Shown in pieces: positions 8,859 through 51,094 of a stretch of DNA of 64,000 nt. This DNA comes from Helicobacteraceae bacterium. GTDB lineage: Bacteria > Campylobacterota > Campylobacteria > Campylobacterales > SZUA-545. The stretch covers positions 1 through 64,000 of the forward strand of contig JAIRNH010000062.1 in the NCBI GenBank assembly GCA_031258155.1, read 5' to 3'. Within the stretch, counting starts at the first letter, position 1, and each line of letters opens with the position of its first letter. The translations under genes and the position numbers were made by a program. Under the pieces are notes generated by a model, which ran no database searches, was not told the origin of the DNA, and worked only from the letters and a program-made list of their open reading frames with translations.

Positions 8859-9069
8859 ACATTTACGGTTTAAACGCAAAACCTTAATCGCGGCGACGAT
8901 AGCAATTCGGGAGAATATCGCGTTCGCGCGCCGATTGAAACGGAGTATGCGCCCATATTTTCAAAACGCGCCTCGGTCGCGCCGCTTGCGAGCGCATATA
9001 TTGAAACGGCTTATTTTGCCTGCCTTTCAACGTCGCGAGAAGTCGCGCTCTTTAACGGTCGCCCCTCTC

Positions 9070-9228
9070 GTCATACCCGCGCGGAGCGATAGGGCGGTTT
9101 CCGCCCGTAATCGCGTAGGAAGGCGGGTATCCAATAAAAACAAACGCAAACTTCTCGTCATTCCCGCGTAGGCGGGTATCCACCTTTTAATGATTGTTGT
9201 TATAGATTCCCGCTTTCGCGGGAATGAC
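9070..9228. repeat. Cluster of GTCATTCCCGC-type palindromic repeats
   Basis: Four related half-sites in two units. Unit 1 runs from GTCATACCCGC near 9070 to GGCGGGTATCC ending near 9132. Unit 2 runs from GTCATTCCCGC near 9158, through GGCGGGTATCC, to GCGGGAATGAC ending at 9228. The ends of unit 2 are inverted copies of each other, and the part at 9206-9225 is itself a near-perfect hairpin (ATTCCCGC / GCGGGAAT). A related copy is at 40898-40923. Such GTCATTCCCGC palindromes are widespread small dispersed repeats in proteobacteria. Apart from this cluster, the rsmE terminator and the pseudogene fragment, I see nothing functional between 8740 and 9747. Confidence 0.7.
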
Positions 9229-40923: not shown

Positions 40924-41042
40924 GTTCCTACGCAATCAGCCTTTTTCGCCCGATATTAACCTAAACCTACCCCAATAACCCAACCTACAAGCAATCCTTT
41001 GATTGTATCACAAATTCTTAAAGATTGCAATTTGAGCAAAAC

Positions 41043-42864: not shown

Positions 42865-45669
42865 TCATTTTTTGTTTCTTGGATCAAACGGATTATGCCT
42901 CTTAGTCCCTACAGTGTTGCTAGCGCTTATACCGATTTCATCAAACGGCGCGGGCATTGCCCTCACAAAATCAGGCGACCCCTTCAAATTATCGCCTCGT
43001 CCTATCGCTCCATTGACAAGCTCTTTCATTTTATCTTCGCCTATCGTGTTTGCATTGGCTTTACTAATTAGCCCCCGATCGGCAAAGAATTCCTTATTGG
43101 CTTCAAAAGCGGCTCTGTAATCTATTCCCGCTTGAGCGTTTTGCTGTCGAGCGTTTGCTAGAGCCGCGCCGTAATCGAAATTATCGACGATTTGCGTATT
43201 GTTAATCTCGTTTTGAGCGCTTGCTATAGCTTTTGGCGCGCCGAGAATCCTTCCGATCTCCGCGCTTGCCTGTTCAGCTCCCATAGCGTTTAGGTTCTGA
43301 AGCGCCGTCTGCGCTCTTTCGTGCGAAAAACCGTATTCTGTCTCACCCATATATTGCGCATACTCGATCAATCTATTCTTTGATAGGTTTGCCTGAGTGG
43401 ATTCGGCTACGCTAAGAGCTTCTTGTTTAGCTTGTAGGTTAGAATAGGCTTCACTTAACTTTCCGCCGCTTGATTGACTGAACGTATTGGCTTTGTTTTC
43501 GTCTATAGCCAAAGCTCTGCCCATAGCGGTGTCCATAGCCCTGTTGAGTCTTTCTATGTCTTTATCGGTAATGTTTGACGTTGCGCTTTCAGAGGTTGAG
43601 CCTTTGCCAGTTAGCGTTCCGCGCGCGCCGACGGCAACTTCTGCGCCATTTCCCAAAATTTTTAATCCGGTTGAAGCGTGCGCGTCGGCATATAGTTGCG
43701 CCGCCGCCTCGCTACTCATCCCCGTCGCCTTAGCCAAAGCCTCGGCGTTTTCAAACGTCTTAAGAAACTCCTGTTTATACGCCTCTCTCGCGCTCGCGTC
43801 CTCTTTAGCGTTATATCTAAACGAACCGTCCTCTTTTACCGAAAATAGCTCCTCTCTCGTTCTAGTCGCTACCTGTTGAGCGGTCTCCTGCAACGATTGT
43901 TGCGCCGTCGCCGTTTTGTTTTCCAAATGTTGAGCGTTAATACCGGCTACATTAGCGTCCGTAACTCGACCGTCAACGCTGTTTAACTTTGCGGCTGAAT
44001 TGGCGGTTTCGGTATGCGTATGTCCGTTTAACTCTCGTTCTATCCAGCTTGTAGGATAACCTCCCATATCGTGCATTCTATTATAGGTCGCCGTTTCGTC
44101 GAAATAGGAGACGCTCCCTCCGGAGATAGAGCTTCCATAAGAGAACCCCTTATCGGGACTATACGCGCTATGTCCTCCGGTCGCCTGTTTATCTACGCTT
44201 GTGTTGGAAGCCGCGTTAGCCGCTCCTCCAAAGGCGTGTCCTAACATACTAAAGAGTCCCGCAAAAGCTACGTCGCTCCCCTTTGCCAAAGCAAAAGCAA
44301 GAATAGGTATTAACCACGAAATATACCCAAGCATAGCCAGTCTATCGCCTATCGTAGAATCCAGAGCGTCTTTGAAAACAAGCTGATACGCTCCCGTAGT
44401 TACGTTGTATGTTATGGTCTTAATCGCCTTTTCTAATTGAAGATCGAAACTGAAGTTCATTATGGAGGCTATGATCATCCATAAAGAGATTGTAAGCATA
44501 AGGGTTATGAATAGGCGAATATACTTAATATCGTGCATCGCTATCGTTAAAAGCACTAATATCCACGATACGCAGATAACGATGGTAATCAGCGTCGCTT
44601 GCATTATGGGCATATATTTCTTAGCCATAAAGCCGCTCGTATAAAACGCCGACTGAGCTTTTCTCTCGGCGTATGCCGGCATCCAAGCCATAGCGCTTAG
44701 GTTAATGCCGGACATAGCCGACATTGTTCTGACTCCTTGATTGTTCATATTTACCAACATTGATTGGGTAACGTAAGTTTCAGCGTCTTGACTCATACCT
44801 AAGTAATGGTTAGCCACAGTCCCAACCTTATCTCCAAACTCGGTGGCGCTAGGGTTGGCGCTTGGACTTATATCGTATCCCATAGAACTAGCCAACTGAG
44901 ATAAAAAGCGTCTGGACTCGGTCGTAAGATTGGACGCTATCTTGTCCCAAGCGTTAGGGCAGTATTCGACGCTTGCAGAGCCGTCTATGGTAGAGTAATA
45001 GGTTGTTATGAAGTTGGTATTTACCTTCAAGTCGTCTATAAGGCTAGAGCTTTGATTTAACCGCATTTTGAACGATGGGTTGAGACCAGATTCATTAACT
45101 AAGCAATCCTCCATATAGGCGTTGAAACTTGCCATAACCGCGCTATTAAGCGGTCTTGCCGTAGCTATGCTATCATGAACGCTCATTGCAAAACCAAGCC
45201 CTGAGTTTCTAAACGACAGCGAGTTGGGAGTTGTGTAGAACTTGTCTAAAGCGGAGAGTATGCTTCTTTGCATATTAGAAAACAAAGCGAAGCTCTCGCC
45301 TATCGCTAAAGGTAGCTTGCCCACGGAGTAAGGCGTATTTGTCGTTTCGTCTATGACCATATACTTAGGCGAGCCGTTTAGCGATAAGAATATCTGCTGC
45401 AGCAGAATAACCATTGCGGGATACTTGACTAAATCAAAAGGAGCGATAGGTTTGCCCATAGCTCCGGCAAATTTAAATATGACGATCATACCGCCAATTG
45501 ATACGGCTACGGCAGTAAGCCCCTTCCCCGTCGCCCCTATTGTTTGAGAGAGGGCTCTAAAAGCTTCAGCTATGGTATCGCCGCTACCCCATACATATAT
45601 TGGAGTGTCGGCAAAAAGAGCCGAGGGGATAAACGCTAGAAGCGTTAGCGTAAATAGTTGTTTAGTCAT
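42865..45669 (-). CDS. traG: TraG, F-type mating-pair stabilisation protein
   Basis: A 934-residue inner-membrane protein. A signal-like N-terminus (MTKQLFTLTLLAFIPSALFA) is followed by the TraG-N domain with helices at GLTAVAVSIGGMIVIFKF, near residues 370-440 (two helices, TLITIVICVSWILVLLTIAM and LFITLMLTISLWMIIA), and LGYISWLIPILAFALAKGSD. A long hydrophilic, Gln/Ala-rich helical C-terminal region (residues 500-934) is the part that in F acts in mating-pair stabilisation and entry exclusion. AAAGGA precedes the start. Unlike in F, it is on the strand opposite the main tra operon and about 20 kb from traH. Confidence 0.85.
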   Translation of the reverse strand: MTKQLFTLTLLAFIPSALFADTPIYVWGSGDTIAEAFRALSQTIGATGKGLTAVAVSIGGMIVIFKFAGAMGKPIAPFDLVKYPAMVILLQQIFLSLNGSPKYMVIDETTNTPYSVGKLPLAIGESFALFSNMQRSILSALDKFYTTPNSLSFRNSGLGFAMSVHDSIATARPLNSAVMASFNAYMEDCLVNESGLNPSFKMRLNQSSSLIDDLKVNTNFITTYYSTIDGSASVEYCPNAWDKIASNLTTESRRFLSQLASSMGYDISPSANPSATEFGDKVGTVANHYLGMSQDAETYVTQSMLVNMNNQGVRTMSAMSGINLSAMAWMPAYAERKAQSAFYTSGFMAKKYMPIMQATLITIVICVSWILVLLTIAMHDIKYIRLFITLMLTISLWMIIASIMNFSFDLQLEKAIKTITYNVTTGAYQLVFKDALDSTIGDRLAMLGYISWLIPILAFALAKGSDVAFAGLFSMLGHAFGGAANAASNTSVDKQATGGHSAYSPDKGFSYGSSISGGSVSYFDETATYNRMHDMGGYPTSWIERELNGHTHTETANSAAKLNSVDGRVTDANVAGINAQHLENKTATAQQSLQETAQQVATRTREELFSVKEDGSFRYNAKEDASAREAYKQEFLKTFENAEALAKATGMSSEAAAQLYADAHASTGLKILGNGAEVAVGARGTLTGKGSTSESATSNITDKDIERLNRAMDTAMGRALAIDENKANTFSQSSGGKLSEAYSNLQAKQEALSVAESTQANLSKNRLIEYAQYMGETEYGFSHERAQTALQNLNAMGAEQASAEIGRILGAPKAIASAQNEINNTQIVDNFDYGAALANARQQNAQAGIDYRAAFEANKEFFADRGLISKANANTIGEDKMKELVNGAIGRGDNLKGSPDFVRAMPAPFDEIGISASNTVGTKRHNPFDPRNKK

Positions 45670-45704: not shown

Positions 45705-45878
45705 CTAACAAATAAACCGAATATGGACGAAAACTCTAAAAAAAACGCGACGGCAAGCTATAGTTTCTTTGCGAGTTGCGCTTTTGCCTTGCGTTTCGTC
45801 GCGTCTATTGATTGGCACTCCGATCGTCAAGCTCTTGCCTCGCGCTCTTGTATCGTAAATCCGTCTTACTTCAATCAT
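45705..45878 (-). CDS. Small 57-residue protein between hypothetical gene and traG
   Basis: An ORF starting at an ATGA overlap with the stop of the upstream gene and preceded by AAGGAG with good spacing. The product MIEVRRIYDTRARGKSLTIG continues with VPINRRDETQGKSATRKE and a basic/aromatic tail. The start loosely resembles the N-terminal strand of AbrB-type proteins. Coupled translation is likely from the overlap and the strong site, but function is unknown. A rightward frame across the same bases has no such support. Confidence 0.5.
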   Translation of the reverse strand: MIEVRRIYDTRARGKSLTIGVPINRRDETQGKSATRKETIACRRVFFRVFVHIRFIC

Positions 45879-46507
45879 TCCGCTCTCTCCTTGTCGGGTA
45901 TCTTTCCGCGAGATAGCCAGAGTATGTCCTTTATAAACTCTACGTTGCTTTCACTCATTCGGAACTGCTTGTCTTCGAGAGAAACTGAAAAGAGTTCAAA
46001 GACGGCTTGCATATTGACGTTTGGAAACGTCTCTTGAAGCTCCGCAAAGACAGGAGAGGAGCTATTAGCCGCTCTGCTCTTTTGTATCTTTGAATAATAG
46101 CCTCTGTAAATCCCGTGAGCGATCCGCTTCATTCGCTTTACCTTCTCCGCTTTCTCCTGATCGTTTGTGAATAGTAGTCTGTATAATACCTGCTCGACTT
46201 TCTTGAAGTTAAACTTTTTATTCAATCTCAAGCATCCCAAATGCGCTTTTCGGCACGCGCCCAATACAATCCTATTGAAGTGGCTTTTTTGTTTGGAAGC
46301 AACGCTTTCAACTTCTATCTTTAGCCTTTTATCTTTTCGTATAGCCGCTTCTATACGAATGCTATCTCCCGCTTGCGCCTCGTCTATCATCTGATTCAGT
46401 TTTGAAAGCATTCCAATGACCGCTTCGGTTTGCTGCTCTGTGAAAGCGCCTTGAAGCAACTGCCGAAACTGATCAAGTTTATCGTTGTTTTCTATCTTGG
46501 TTTTCAT
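45875..46507 (-). CDS. Hypothetical protein of the element
   Basis: A 210-residue charged, helical protein, starting MKTKIENNDKLDQFRQLLQG. It has many Lys/Arg (RKDKRLKIEVESVASKQKSHFNRIVLGACRK, RMKRIAHGIYRGYYSKIQK), which suggests nucleic-acid contact. No domain recognised and no membrane segment. It is transcribed leftward, directly downstream of the candidate origin, whose AT-rich core could also give its promoter (TATAAT in 46730-46745 on the minus strand). It is coupled to the 57-residue gene and probably to traG. Confidence 0.65.
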   Translation of the reverse strand: MKTKIENNDKLDQFRQLLQGAFTEQQTEAVIGMLSKLNQMIDEAQAGDSIRIEAAIRKDKRLKIEVESVASKQKSHFNRIVLGACRKAHLGCLRLNKKFNFKKVEQVLYRLLFTNDQEKAEKVKRMKRIAHGIYRGYYSKIQKSRAANSSSPVFAELQETFPNVNMQAVFELFSVSLEDKQFRMSESNVEFIKDILWLSRGKIPDKERAE

Positions 46508-46688
46508 CGTATTTGCTTCGTTATAGCTTTTTGGTTAAAACGGACGTTTAACCCGCAAGGAGATCGGAAAGCGGGACAAGACGAGACTAGGGCGTTTGAG
46601 AGGCTATCAAGCGTCTTTTTTCGCTCCGAATGCCAAAGTTCCGAAAATATGCCAAAAATGGGGGATAATATCAAAGATAACCCCGCAA

Positions 46689-46764
46689 TTTTCCACACCA
46701 TTGATTTTTGAGCGGTTTTCCACACAGATATATATATTATATACAACTCAGAAATTTTCCACAC
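46689..46764. other. Candidate replication origin: three TTTTCCACAC boxes and an AT-rich core
   Basis: TTTTCCACAC occurs at 46689-46698, 46716-46725 and 46755-46764, all in the same orientation. The sequence fits a relaxed DnaA box (TTWTNCACA) and could equally be the iteron of the Rep protein. Between boxes 2 and 3 lies GATATATATATTATATAC (46727-46744), a good DNA-unwinding element. It sits on the far side of a small membrane-protein gene from the rep gene (47108-48838). The functional call is inferred. Confidence 0.5.
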
Positions 46765-46787
46765 TTCTCCCTCTCCCCCTCTCATCT

Positions 46788-47105
46788 CTAAAACCCCTCC
46801 CTTCCGCTCGCTATAGCCCTGACCACGAAAAGGGCTATAAACGACAGCAGAAAGGTTAAGAACATTACGCCATACGCGCTATCCACAAACACATATCTAG
46901 TCGTTACAAGAGGCTTCCTTATCTTAAACCCGTTCTTGACAAACCTATAAACAAATCTAACCGAAGCCACAATTCCAATTCCTGAAAACAAAGCCATAAC
47001 GATAAAGAATATTACAAGAAGCGTTGAGGTTTCTTGAACCTGTCCAGCCTGCTGATACAAAGCTATATATTGTTCCATAGCTTCTAATGTGGCGTTTCGT
47101 TCCAT
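46788..47105 (-). CDS. Small membrane protein next to rep
   Basis: A 105-residue protein with two membrane helices (TLLVIFFIVMALFSGIGIVASV and SAYGVMFLTFLLSFIALFVV) and a basic loop between them. It begins 3 bases after the rep stop, so it belongs to the rep operon. No family recognised. A membrane-linked role in replication control, exclusion or conjugation is possible, but nothing in the sequence decides it. Confidence 0.6.
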   Translation of the reverse strand: MERNATLEAMEQYIALYQQAGQVQETSTLLVIFFIVMALFSGIGIVASVRFVYRFVKNGFKIRKPLVTTRYVFVDSAYGVMFLTFLLSFIALFVVRAIASGREGF

Positions 47106-47107
47106 CG

Positions 47108-48838
47108 TTAATCCTTTGCCGTTGTAGTATCCGTTATCGCGTCGGTCAATACCAACGCCATTTCTTTATCAAGCGATCCGATATATTTGCTATTGTCTAT
47201 CTCAAACTCTATCTTTTTGCCAATTGACAAAGCGATATAAATCTTTCGCAAAAGCGGCAACGGAGCTTTTTCTTTGGTTATTCCCTGAATGCGGTTAGAG
47301 AAAAAAACGTTGGACTTTGCTCCGTCTAAGATAACTTGCCAATTTTCCGATGGAGAGATATTTGTCAGAGATTGAACGATAAGACGCTCGTATCGCTCTC
47401 TTTCCTCTGTTTCTTTCGTTTGTTTTTCTTTATGCGTTGCTAACCGTTTTAACATTGTTTCTTGAGAGCTATTGATTAAACTAGAGCATAGCTCCAATAA
47501 TCTATTATTGCCGATTATTGAACTAAACGACAAAAATCCTTCGTCTTGCGTTGAAAGATAAAGATTTTCCAAGCTCGACCCCTTTTCTTTAACGGCAATA
47601 GCGTCAAGGGTTTTATATAGCTCGTTTGCCTTTCTTTGTTTTTCCTCTTGTTCCGACTTAATTTCCTGTTCGCGTTTATACGCGATATATTGATTAACTC
47701 TCGCTTCTTTATCGCCTAGTTTGCCGTTATCCAGCAATTGCCTAAGATGAACTTTATACGCGCTCTTATTGGTCGCGTCTTTCGCCAAGAAATCTAAGAA
47801 ACTCTCTTTATTTATCGTTTGATTGAATAGGGTTATCTCGTTTGATTTGCTGTTATTTAAGCCGTTATTGGCGTTATTGGCGTTGTCGTCGAACAACGTA
47901 GTCTGTATCGGTTTGCTTTGCTTGTATCTGCCTCGTATTCTGACGGCGATTACTCTTCTGCCGTTTAATTTTACATCGTCGTATTTGTCGAAAAATGCGT
48001 CTATGTTGGTCTTGGAGTTTATTTCGTCGATGGCTTTGTCAATCACAAATGTTCGCAGATTTTTGAAGTTGGAGAGATATTTATCGCCTCCCACCAGCTT
48101 AGCGAAGGTTACGATGTCTATAAACGGCGTTTGACCTCTACCTCGCTTTTCGTCTATATAGTCCAGGAGCAGTAGGTAAATGGCGTGGCTTGAGCCGTGT
48201 TTTAGCGAATTGAGCTTTTTTGGAAGGAATTTGCAATAAAGACGGGTTTGCGCTTTATCAAGATAGTAATTGACTAAATTAGTAAACGAAAAATATAACT
48301 TGTCGTCTTTGTATATAACCGCGTCGATTATATTGCTTTTGCCCGATATGGCTTTTACCGCCGCCCTCGTTTTTTTCTCGGTCGTATGACCGCACGAGGG
48401 GCAGACAAGTCGATTATTTAGTTCGCTCATATAAGTTCCGCATTCCGAGCAAATGACAATATCGTCCTTGTCTTTGCCTAATAAGTTAAACGATACCGAG
48501 AGATCGACAAGCGCGTCTATTGAACGTTTAAACAGGCTGTAATCGTTGCTGTTAAATTCTGATAGCTCGCGCAATTGCTTGAGATTGACGCACCAGTGAA
48601 AGATTGTCATTTCGTCCGGTTCTGAATTATTTAGTTTTGGTCTGCGCGCTATCTTTGTCGTTACAGCGTAGATAAGGCTTGCGAATATTTTTTGTTGAAG
48701 TAATGGAAAATTGCCTCTGGTAATCTGAACCGAAGCCGATGGCATACGCCCCAAACGTTCGGCAAAGATTTGCTTTGCGGAGATTTCAGCCTCTGGTTCT
48801 TTAACGGCAACAGGCGTATCGGACATAGCTAGTTCCAA
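47108..48838 (-). CDS. Replication initiator, Rep_3/RepB-like, with zinc-ribbon insert
   Basis: A 576-residue protein. Residues 35-310 resemble the twin winged-helix initiator domain of Rep_3 plasmids (QKIFASLIYAVTTKIA; AIYLLLLDYIDEKRGRGQTPFIDIVTFAKLVGGDKYLSNFKNLRTFVIDKAIDEINSK). An insert carries a zinc ribbon: Cys130/133 (CSEC) and Cys146/149 (CPSC). The C-terminal half is helical and highly charged. It overlaps the upstream gene by 10 bases; the ATG five codons in (MSDTPVAV) is an alternative start. The candidate iterons at 46.7 kb and the repeats at 50.3 kb are its likely targets. Confidence 0.65.
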   Translation of the reverse strand: MELAMSDTPVAVKEPEAEISAKQIFAERLGRMPSASVQITRGNFPLLQQKIFASLIYAVTTKIARRPKLNNSEPDEMTIFHWCVNLKQLRELSEFNSNDYSLFKRSIDALVDLSVSFNLLGKDKDDIVICSECGTYMSELNNRLVCPSCGHTTEKKTRAAVKAISGKSNIIDAVIYKDDKLYFSFTNLVNYYLDKAQTRLYCKFLPKKLNSLKHGSSHAIYLLLLDYIDEKRGRGQTPFIDIVTFAKLVGGDKYLSNFKNLRTFVIDKAIDEINSKTNIDAFFDKYDDVKLNGRRVIAVRIRGRYKQSKPIQTTLFDDNANNANNGLNNSKSNEITLFNQTINKESFLDFLAKDATNKSAYKVHLRQLLDNGKLGDKEARVNQYIAYKREQEIKSEQEEKQRKANELYKTLDAIAVKEKGSSLENLYLSTQDEGFLSFSSIIGNNRLLELCSSLINSSQETMLKRLATHKEKQTKETEERERYERLIVQSLTNISPSENWQVILDGAKSNVFFSNRIQGITKEKAPLPLLRKIYIALSIGKKIEFEIDNSKYIGSLDKEMALVLTDAITDTTTAKD

Positions 48839-49366: not shown

Positions 49367-50233
49367 TCATTGACACCCGTCGCAATCGCAAAAATTGTTT
49401 TGGGTTTGGTCTGGCAGTTTGAAATCATCGTCTTGTTTATTATCAAACGCAGGGACGGGACAAGCGTCCATATTTATCTGCTCTTTGGTTAGTTCCGCTG
49501 AAGCTATAGGAGCGCGGTCTCTTAAATCTTGCTTGAAATAAGCCTTAGCCTTATGTCGGTTGATAAACAATCTGGCAAGGTCTAGGAATATCTCCCAATC
49601 TACGGGAGGCTGAGGAGTTCCGCTAAACGCTCCTATACGATAATAATCGCATAAATCGTAAATAAGGCAATCGACCAACAACGTAAGGCTTTGAGAAAGG
49701 TCGATTACAGGCTCAAAGGAAGCCCACGTCGGTATTCCGTTTTTCTTTAGAGCGTCTAGGGTTTCTAGTCTTTCTTCGGGTTCCGCCGTAAAAGGTTCAA
49801 AGAATGCGCTTAGAATCGGATCGTAGAAGGTTAGGGATTGACCAATTCTAATAGATTTGCCAAACTCCTTAAACAGGTCTAGGTCTATTAGACACCTAGC
49901 GCCGCCTTTGGTTAGGATTTGGACGGGAACGCGATGCTTTAAGCAAAGTTCCAAAGCTCTACGAGTCGGGGAGTTATCCTTGCGCGTTTTGTCGTAGGGG
50001 TCTCCGACAAAGGAGATATGAACGTATTTGTCCGTAGTGTTGGCGTAACGCTTTATGCTCTCTTCCAACTCGAACATATCTCTAGGCGAAGCGTTGAACG
50101 CGAAATAATCCGCTTTATCCTTTCTTAGCGTTTTTGGCGCGTAACAGTAAAGACACCCGTGTCCGCAGTTGAGATAGAGATTTAGAGCTAGAGGGGCGTA
50201 TTCTCTAGCCTTGCCTTTTGGTTCGTAGATCAT
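49367..50233 (-). CDS. Radical SAM protein of the spore-photolyase-like (COG1533) family
   Basis: A 288-residue radical SAM enzyme. The start MIYEPKGKAREYAPLALNLY is the typical N-terminus of this family and is preceded by AGGA, so I start at 50233 rather than the ORF's upstream end (50422), whose extra residues come from repeats. Cluster cysteines are Cys23, Cys27 and Cys30 (CGHGCLYC). HISFVGDPYD, VQILTKGGARCL, IRIGQSLTF and TWASFEPVID follow. The tail ends in CDCDGCQ, an extra cysteine motif. Substrate unknown; spore photoproduct lyase itself repairs DNA lesions. It is the first gene of the leftward rep operon. Confidence 0.82.
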   Translation of the reverse strand: MIYEPKGKAREYAPLALNLYLNCGHGCLYCYAPKTLRKDKADYFAFNASPRDMFELEESIKRYANTTDKYVHISFVGDPYDKTRKDNSPTRRALELCLKHRVPVQILTKGGARCLIDLDLFKEFGKSIRIGQSLTFYDPILSAFFEPFTAEPEERLETLDALKKNGIPTWASFEPVIDLSQSLTLLVDCLIYDLCDYYRIGAFSGTPQPPVDWEIFLDLARLFINRHKAKAYFKQDLRDRAPIASAELTKEQINMDACPVPAFDNKQDDDFKLPDQTQNNFCDCDGCQ

Positions 50234-50347
50234 AAAGTTCCTGTTTTTTTGTTTGGCGGTCATATGGAACCGCTTAACGCACAAATAAACGGAACGTTCG
50301 AGGAAAACAAAAAAATCGGGGGACGGATGAAAAATCAGGGAATGAGG

Positions 50348-50554
50348 ATAGCTCCCCGCAGGCGGCTCAACCCCCCGTAGAATTACCAATAGCTGGCTCT
50401 CGACTCCCCGCAAAATTACCAATAAGCCTCGTTTGAACTCCCATATATCCGCGATTTAAGCGGCTTCGCTGGTATAGCTCCCCGCAGGCGGCTCAACCCC
50501 CCGTAGAATTACCAATAGCTGGCTCTCGACTCCCCGCAAAATTACCAATAAGCC
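50348..50554. repeat. Two perfect 81-bp direct repeats with internal iteron-like units
   Basis: The 81 bases at 50348-50428 recur unchanged at 50474-50554 (period 126). Each copy holds two related units, CCCCGTAGAATTACCAATA and CCCCGCAAAATTACCAATA, giving four in all. They lie between the divergent rep and par operons. They resemble plasmid iterons (Rep binding) or a partition site. On the minus strand they are read as the VILRGVE-repeated N-terminal extension of the radical SAM ORF, which I regard as non-coding. Confidence 0.75.
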
Positions 50555-50588: not shown

Positions 50589-50644
50589 GCGCAAATATAT
50601 TAAGAGTATTCTTAATTAGTCTCATAAATATATTATATTTGCGC
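50589..50644. repeat. Nested inverted repeats in an AT-rich stretch
   Basis: Outer arms GCGCAAATATA (50589-50599) and TATATTTGCGC (50634-50644) are perfect inverted copies 34 bases apart. Inside lies a second palindrome, TTAAGA-GTAT-TCTTAA (50600-50615). The stretch is strongly AT-rich between GC-rich flanks. It could be an operator, origin, partition or transfer-origin element; I cannot decide which. Confidence 0.6.
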
Positions 50645-50724
50645 AACGCGCGCGCGAGAAATCGAAATCGCCGACTTTTGCGAAAAGTTTGCGCGGCTCC
50701 GCGAGCTACGCTCGCTTTGATCGG

Positions 50725-50943
50725 AAGGGGGCTTTTCGCCCCCTTACCCCTTCATTCGCTTTGCTTTCGTTTCAAAAGGAGCTTCTGATCGCTTCCAACA
50801 GGAAGGGGCAAAGCCCCTTACCCCCTGATCGCTTCGCTCTTGTTCTGAAACGATTTCTTTTTTTTGTTGCTTGTCCGCTTCGCTTTCGTTCTGAAAGGAT
50901 TTTTCTTTTGTTTCTCTCTGATCGGAAGGGGCTATCGCCCCTT
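50725..50943. repeat. Three C-rich hairpin repeats
   Basis: Three near-identical hairpins, each preceded by GG and followed by ACCCC: AAGGGGG/CCCCCTT at 50725-50745, AAGGGGC/GCCCCTT at 50803-50819 and again at 50926-50943. T-rich spacers carrying CGCTTCGCT or CGCTTTGCT and TCGTTCTGAAA-like words separate them, so the whole is a decayed tandem array. ORFs crossing it are low-complexity and probably not genes. The remaining sequence up to 51060 shows nothing else. Confidence 0.65.
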
Positions 50944-51094
50944 ACCCCCCTATCTCGTTTTCAACAGTCAATCGCCAAAATCACCGCCTTCCTTTTTTAA
51001 CGGCTTTTACGACAATCGCAAATCCGAAGCTCTCCAAGATTTGGGGATTTGCCGTTAAAAGGTGAAAAAAATCAGGAAATTGCGGAGATTTTTG

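Follow-up and report, generated by a model that had tools for sequence, protein, structure and literature searches.

Results

The site lies between rep and the transfer genes of an integrated element

The window (the whole stretch of DNA analysed, 64,000 nucleotides) contains an element whose minus-strand genes, between 41043 and 50422, encode in order an integrase, TraG_N, a 210-aa protein, then (after the site described here) a 105-aa protein, Rep, a 167-aa protein and a radical-SAM protein. On the plus strand, genes from 51174 onward encode a 102-aa protein, ParA and ParB, followed by a TraL-TraE-TraK-TraB-DsbC-TraC run. Family matches within the element were obtained for Phage_integrase, TraG_N, TraE, TraK, TrbI/TraB and TraC, and chromosomal genes adjoin it. 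This gene content makes it an integrated conjugative element whose transfer system is of the F type. We found a second integrated copy in another genus of the same family, at a different chromosomal place (genome G135, Helicobacteraceae bacterium Roe453_bin2, JAITRJ010000003.1); its locus is called L010 below, and these two are the only known copies. Homology with the second element starts near 40960, which places the left end of the element there; the element side is homologous at two different chromosomal places. The right end is unseen because the contig ends at 65483. The genes nearest to the site are:

42865–45669, minus strand: TraG_N mating-pair protein of the F-type transfer system (Pfam TraG_N, 8.3e-47)
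45875–46507, minus strand: conserved 210-aa protein, downstream of the site (62% identical in L010; no usable family match)
46788–47105, minus strand: conserved protein of 105 aa that has hydrophobic stretches; its gene separates rep from the site (73% identical in L010)
47108–48838, minus strand: Rep, a Rep_3-type replication initiator with a WH2 domain (Pfam Rep3_C at 2.2e-07, which passes the cut-off)

As initially annotated, the site is thus one small gene, that of the 105-aa protein, away from rep. Only the WH2 part of Rep was recognised by Pfam. The protein also carries a CxxC...CxxC zinc-ribbon-like insert (about residues 127–157), which zinc-ribbon models match weakly, and a long C-terminal part; the end of this part is shared with the second element, where it is encoded next to the same site. 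A fold prediction for Rep residues 1–310 had too low a confidence (pLDDT 37) to be relied on. No relatives of Rep were found in viral contigs or plasmids. Among genome contigs, the 105-aa protein matched only the same second element, and the 210-aa protein had no match beyond the window in viral contigs, 397 genomes of the class or plasmids. TraG_N has relatives on Campylobacter plasmids (about 25% identical), with other neighbours in both of the two plasmids inspected. The radical-SAM protein gene (49367–50422) lies directly upstream of the rep operon, and the divergent intergenic region before parA (50690–50950) holds repeated GGAAGGGGC...GCCCCTTACCCC units of inverted-repeat character.

Three identical boxes cluster around an unstable A/T core

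The site consists of three copies of a 10-mer and an A/T-only run:

46689–46698, plus strand: box 1, TTTTCCACAC, exact; identical at L010 9031
46716–46725, plus strand: box 2, TTTTCCACAC, exact; identical at L010 9058; CACA end towards the A/T core
46728–46743, no strand: A/T-only core of 16 bases, flanked by boxes 2 and 3; a candidate DNA-unwinding element or, alternatively, the −10 region of a promoter on the minus strand
46755–46764, plus strand: box 3, TTTTCCACAC, exact; TTTTCCTCAC at L010 9097, with the same spacing

The threefold occurrence of the 10-mer in one direction within 76 bases, first noted in the initial annotation, was confirmed: the copies at 46689, 46716 and 46755 are exact and on the same strand (0.02 expected in the 64-kb window). 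A concern for an origin was that the word might be common elsewhere in the genome. Pattern searches, which we used for all genome-wide word counts, returned three copies in the whole 1.94-Mb genome, all in this cluster, and no further copy appeared in the 64-kb window when one mismatch was allowed. None of the simulated 64-kb sequences held any 10-mer three times inside 100 bp, and the real window has two such cases. The 9-mer TTTTCCACA is not rare (24 genome copies), and these three form its only tight cluster; since TTTTCCACA is otherwise scattered, the signal is the cluster and not the word. The intervals between boxes, 27 and 39 bp, correspond to 2.57 and 3.71 helical turns, and the boxes are neither evenly spaced nor in helical phase. 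On contig C2, two similar 9-mers (17790 and 17835) turned out to lie within a long ORF (605 aa; L009 3711–5528) and were dropped.

The A/T-rich block reported between boxes 2 and 3 is present, although its A/T-only run measures 16 bases rather than 18. Of the 24,563 20-mers in the element, the one starting at 46727 is the least stable, as is its counterpart at 9069 among the 7,053 of L010. For 50-base windows, the stability minimum of the element lies at 50592 instead of at the box-site core. GC skew at the box site showed no clean switch and third-position skew was mixed, in an element that is cut by the contig end.

The box segment is conserved at the DNA level

We then compared the site with its counterpart in the second element. 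In L010 the boxes (9031, 9058 and 9097) keep identical 27- and 39-bp spacings, two being exact and the third bearing a single change, and the A/T core is kept. A pair of boxes 14–22 bp apart occurred only in these 2 of 399 Campylobacterales genomes, and the two-box pattern at its exact spacing was absent from viral contigs. The comparison defined the following segment:

46655–46785, no strand: conserved segment of about 130 bp with boxes and core (99/131 identical to L010)

This identity exceeds that at fourfold sites of three neighbouring genes (115/265; p about 1e-9), also when the boxes are removed (p 1e-5), and the flank at 46540–46600 shows chance similarity between the two copies. Boxes retained 29/30 bases, compared with 70/101 between boxes (hypergeometric p 0.0009). 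When the box triple was slid along the segment, 6 of 56 placements gave as many identities, so the boxes are part of a conserved block and do not stand out sharply from it. The box cluster in L010 is surrounded by an 8-bp perfect inverted repeat, AGAGATGA/TCATCTCT (9015–9022 and 9124–9131), which has two mismatches in the window. No Rfam match passed the curated thresholds. Folding of the minus-strand RNA differs between the two copies (z −0.2 and −2.8), and we therefore claim no shared RNA structure. Because the same layout is kept in the related element, we take the site to be a real control site; on these comparisons, the box segment is a real, conserved and easily melted cis element at the DNA level, adjoining rep.

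We considered whether the boxes are instead conserved as codons. Read on the minus strand they become GTGTGGAAAA, which would be a repeated Val-Trp-Lys motif in the small protein of an ORF that covers the site:

46504–46785, minus strand: 93-aa ORF over the site; a doubtful gene that may be a leader or spurious

This ORF is open in both elements (a chance of 0.3–0.5% each), keeps a purine-rich Shine-Dalgarno-like stretch and its ATG, and overlaps the start of the next gene by 4 bp; both box spacings are multiples of three, which places the boxes in one frame. However, the three codon positions have changed about equally often (13/10/11 over the first 45 codons, and 36/33/32), whereas all neighbours show a third-position excess, and its silent sites are more conserved than those of the neighbours (pS 0.31 vs 0.50–0.75). 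The pN/pS interval is wide (0.43–1.49). The second half of the ORF does not align, showing chance similarity between the copies, codon usage is weak and no family match was found. We consider it unlikely that the boxes are coding, and the ORF may be a translated leader.

A promoter with operators could account for the same conservation

Conservation alone cannot tell an origin from an operator. The segment may be a promoter in which the core supplies the −10 region for the minus-strand genes of the 210-aa protein and TraG_N, with the boxes bound by a transfer-gene regulator. At the core the minus strand has TATAAT in the window, against TAGAAT in L010, same-direction boxes flank it, transfer genes lie downstream in both elements, and the site occupies the sole sizeable gap between rep and the 210-aa gene. 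Yet at the core of neither element did a promoter scan return a sigma-70-like pair, and no regulator gene is tied to the boxes. We regard this promoter as a close rival to an origin, possible though rather doubtful.

The boxes differ from host DnaA boxes

The initial annotation had proposed that the 10-mer fits a relaxed DnaA box, in which case the site would be an origin recognised by host DnaA. Indeed, TTTTCCACA matches the E. coli consensus TTWTNCACA with zero mismatches. Epsilonproteobacterial DnaA boxes, however, share a TTCAC core with T at position 5 (PMC5043019), and the candidate boxes have C there (TCCAC core). DnaA-trios come after the last box (PMC8235120); the run after any candidate box is at most 2, as against five at the host oriC2. 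The host oriC served as a positive control and was recovered on both sides of dnaA, with TTATTCACA and ATTTTCACC upstream and TTTTTCACG, GTTTTCACG, CCGC and CTACTACTGCTACTA downstream. Its oriC2 part, 3′ of dnaA (L007 6574–6605; genome contig C52), is a clean unwinding site of the epsilon type, in which two TTCAC boxes are accompanied by a CCGC spacer and a run of five DnaA-trios. The candidate site has neither a host-type DnaA box nor the GC spacer and DnaA-trio run. With TCCAC in its boxes and no more than two trios in a row, the site is unlikely to be bound by host DnaA, even though the E. coli consensus is matched; we dropped the relaxed DnaA box, and an origin of this type is very improbable here.

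The boxes depart from classical iterons, and a second array lies 5′ of the rep operon

The same 10-mer had also been read as an iteron. As in an iteron-type oriV, a Rep_3 initiator is nearby and an A/T-rich candidate unwinding region is adjacent to the boxes. Iterons, however, are usually 17–22 bp long, and displacing them by half a turn abolishes cooperativity (PMC4980987). In place of regular, in-phase repeats of 17–22 bp, the site has a shared core of 10 bp at irregular, out-of-phase intervals of 27 and 39 bp, so that its fit to a classical iteron is weak. What endures of the proposed origin is a conserved, easily melted cis site near rep.

A second set of repeats was found on the other side of rep:

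50373–50550, plus strand: four 19-bp copies of CCCCGYARAATTACCAATA, an iteron-like array 5′ of the rep operon; unique to this genome place
50592–50650, no strand: A/T-rich block beside the CCCCGYARAATTACCAATA array, containing the weakest 50-mer of the element and 14-bp inverted arms (GCGCAAATATATTA/TATTATATTTGCGC)

This array is a competing origin candidate and resembles a classical oriV more closely than the box site does. Elsewhere in the family CCCCGYARAATTACCAATA had a single match, with two mismatches; the counterpart position in G135 is beyond the contig end. Within 50350–50554, a 79-nt stretch recurs exactly at a distance of 126 bp, with two versions of CCCCGYARAATTACCAATA in each copy, and overlaps the start of the radical-SAM ORF (a TTG call). 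The array may be a recent duplication of these 79 nt.

An origin of transfer was considered as well, with the repeats as sites for relaxosome proteins. The segment adjoins transfer genes and is conserved and A/T-rich with direct repeats, and there is a precedent in R391, whose relaxase, starting at oriT, is also what drives the circular form to replicate (PMC4489591). Against this, no relaxase was recognised near the segment (the search covered one relaxase family, TraI_2, which the assembly lacks), and the two copies have no strong inverted repeat in common. We judge an oriT here to be improbable.

Discussion

The segment carries repeats conserved together with their spacing, evolves slowly at the DNA level, is extremely unstable locally and is linked to rep. 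Our best single reading, which we hold tentatively and at somewhat less than an even chance, is that 46655–46800 forms the unwinding portion of an oriV that the element uses in its excised, circular state. The element's Rep_3-like Rep, or a partner protein, would bind the three directly repeated TTTTCCACAC sites, of which boxes 1 and 2 aim their CACA ends at the 16-base A/T core. The core would then melt and admit the host helicase. Such an origin would be active in the circular form and presumably silent during integration. The position of rep one gene away and the presence of ParA/ParB and an integrase in the same element speak for an origin; the location of the site 3′ of rep, with one gene between, speaks against it. 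The weights given to all readings are our judgement and were not computed.

There are few groups in which integrated conjugative elements are known to replicate themselves. We think it possible, but doubtful enough to be put forward with reserve, that the element carries an origin of its own with a new layout, in which a Rep_3-like initiator bearing a zinc-ribbon-like insert would act at three short 10-bp sites that are out of phase and surround an A/T core 3′ of rep, with no host-type DnaA boxes. Should the segment be an origin, the question of how a Rep-driven origin within a chromosome is prevented from firing could be studied on a short and precise target, and this origin would work in the absence of the DnaA boxes usual in the host. 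Should the segment be an operator, it marks the switch for the transfer genes.

Among known systems, ICEs of the SXT/R391 type (PMC4489591) share with the present element F-type transfer, an integrase, the TraL-TraE-TraK-TraB-DsbC-TraC run, partition genes and a likely circular-form replication. R391 replication needs the relaxase and oriT, whereas the present element has its own Rep_3-like gene; this comparison is one of features, not of site sequence. The epsilonproteobacterial oriC of the Helicobacter pylori type (PMC5043019, PMC8235120) likewise aims a 9-bp box at an A/T-rich unwinding block, but the candidate has TCCAC in place of TTCAC and lacks the GC spacer and the DnaA-trios, all of which the host oriC has. 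With the Rep_3 iteron plasmid origins of pPS10, R6K, F and RK2, the candidate shares a Rep_3-like initiator, direct repeats, an A/T-rich unwinding block and partition genes nearby; it differs from them in its 10-bp core, its irregular, out-of-phase spacing, its place 3′ of rep and its lack of a host-type DnaA box.
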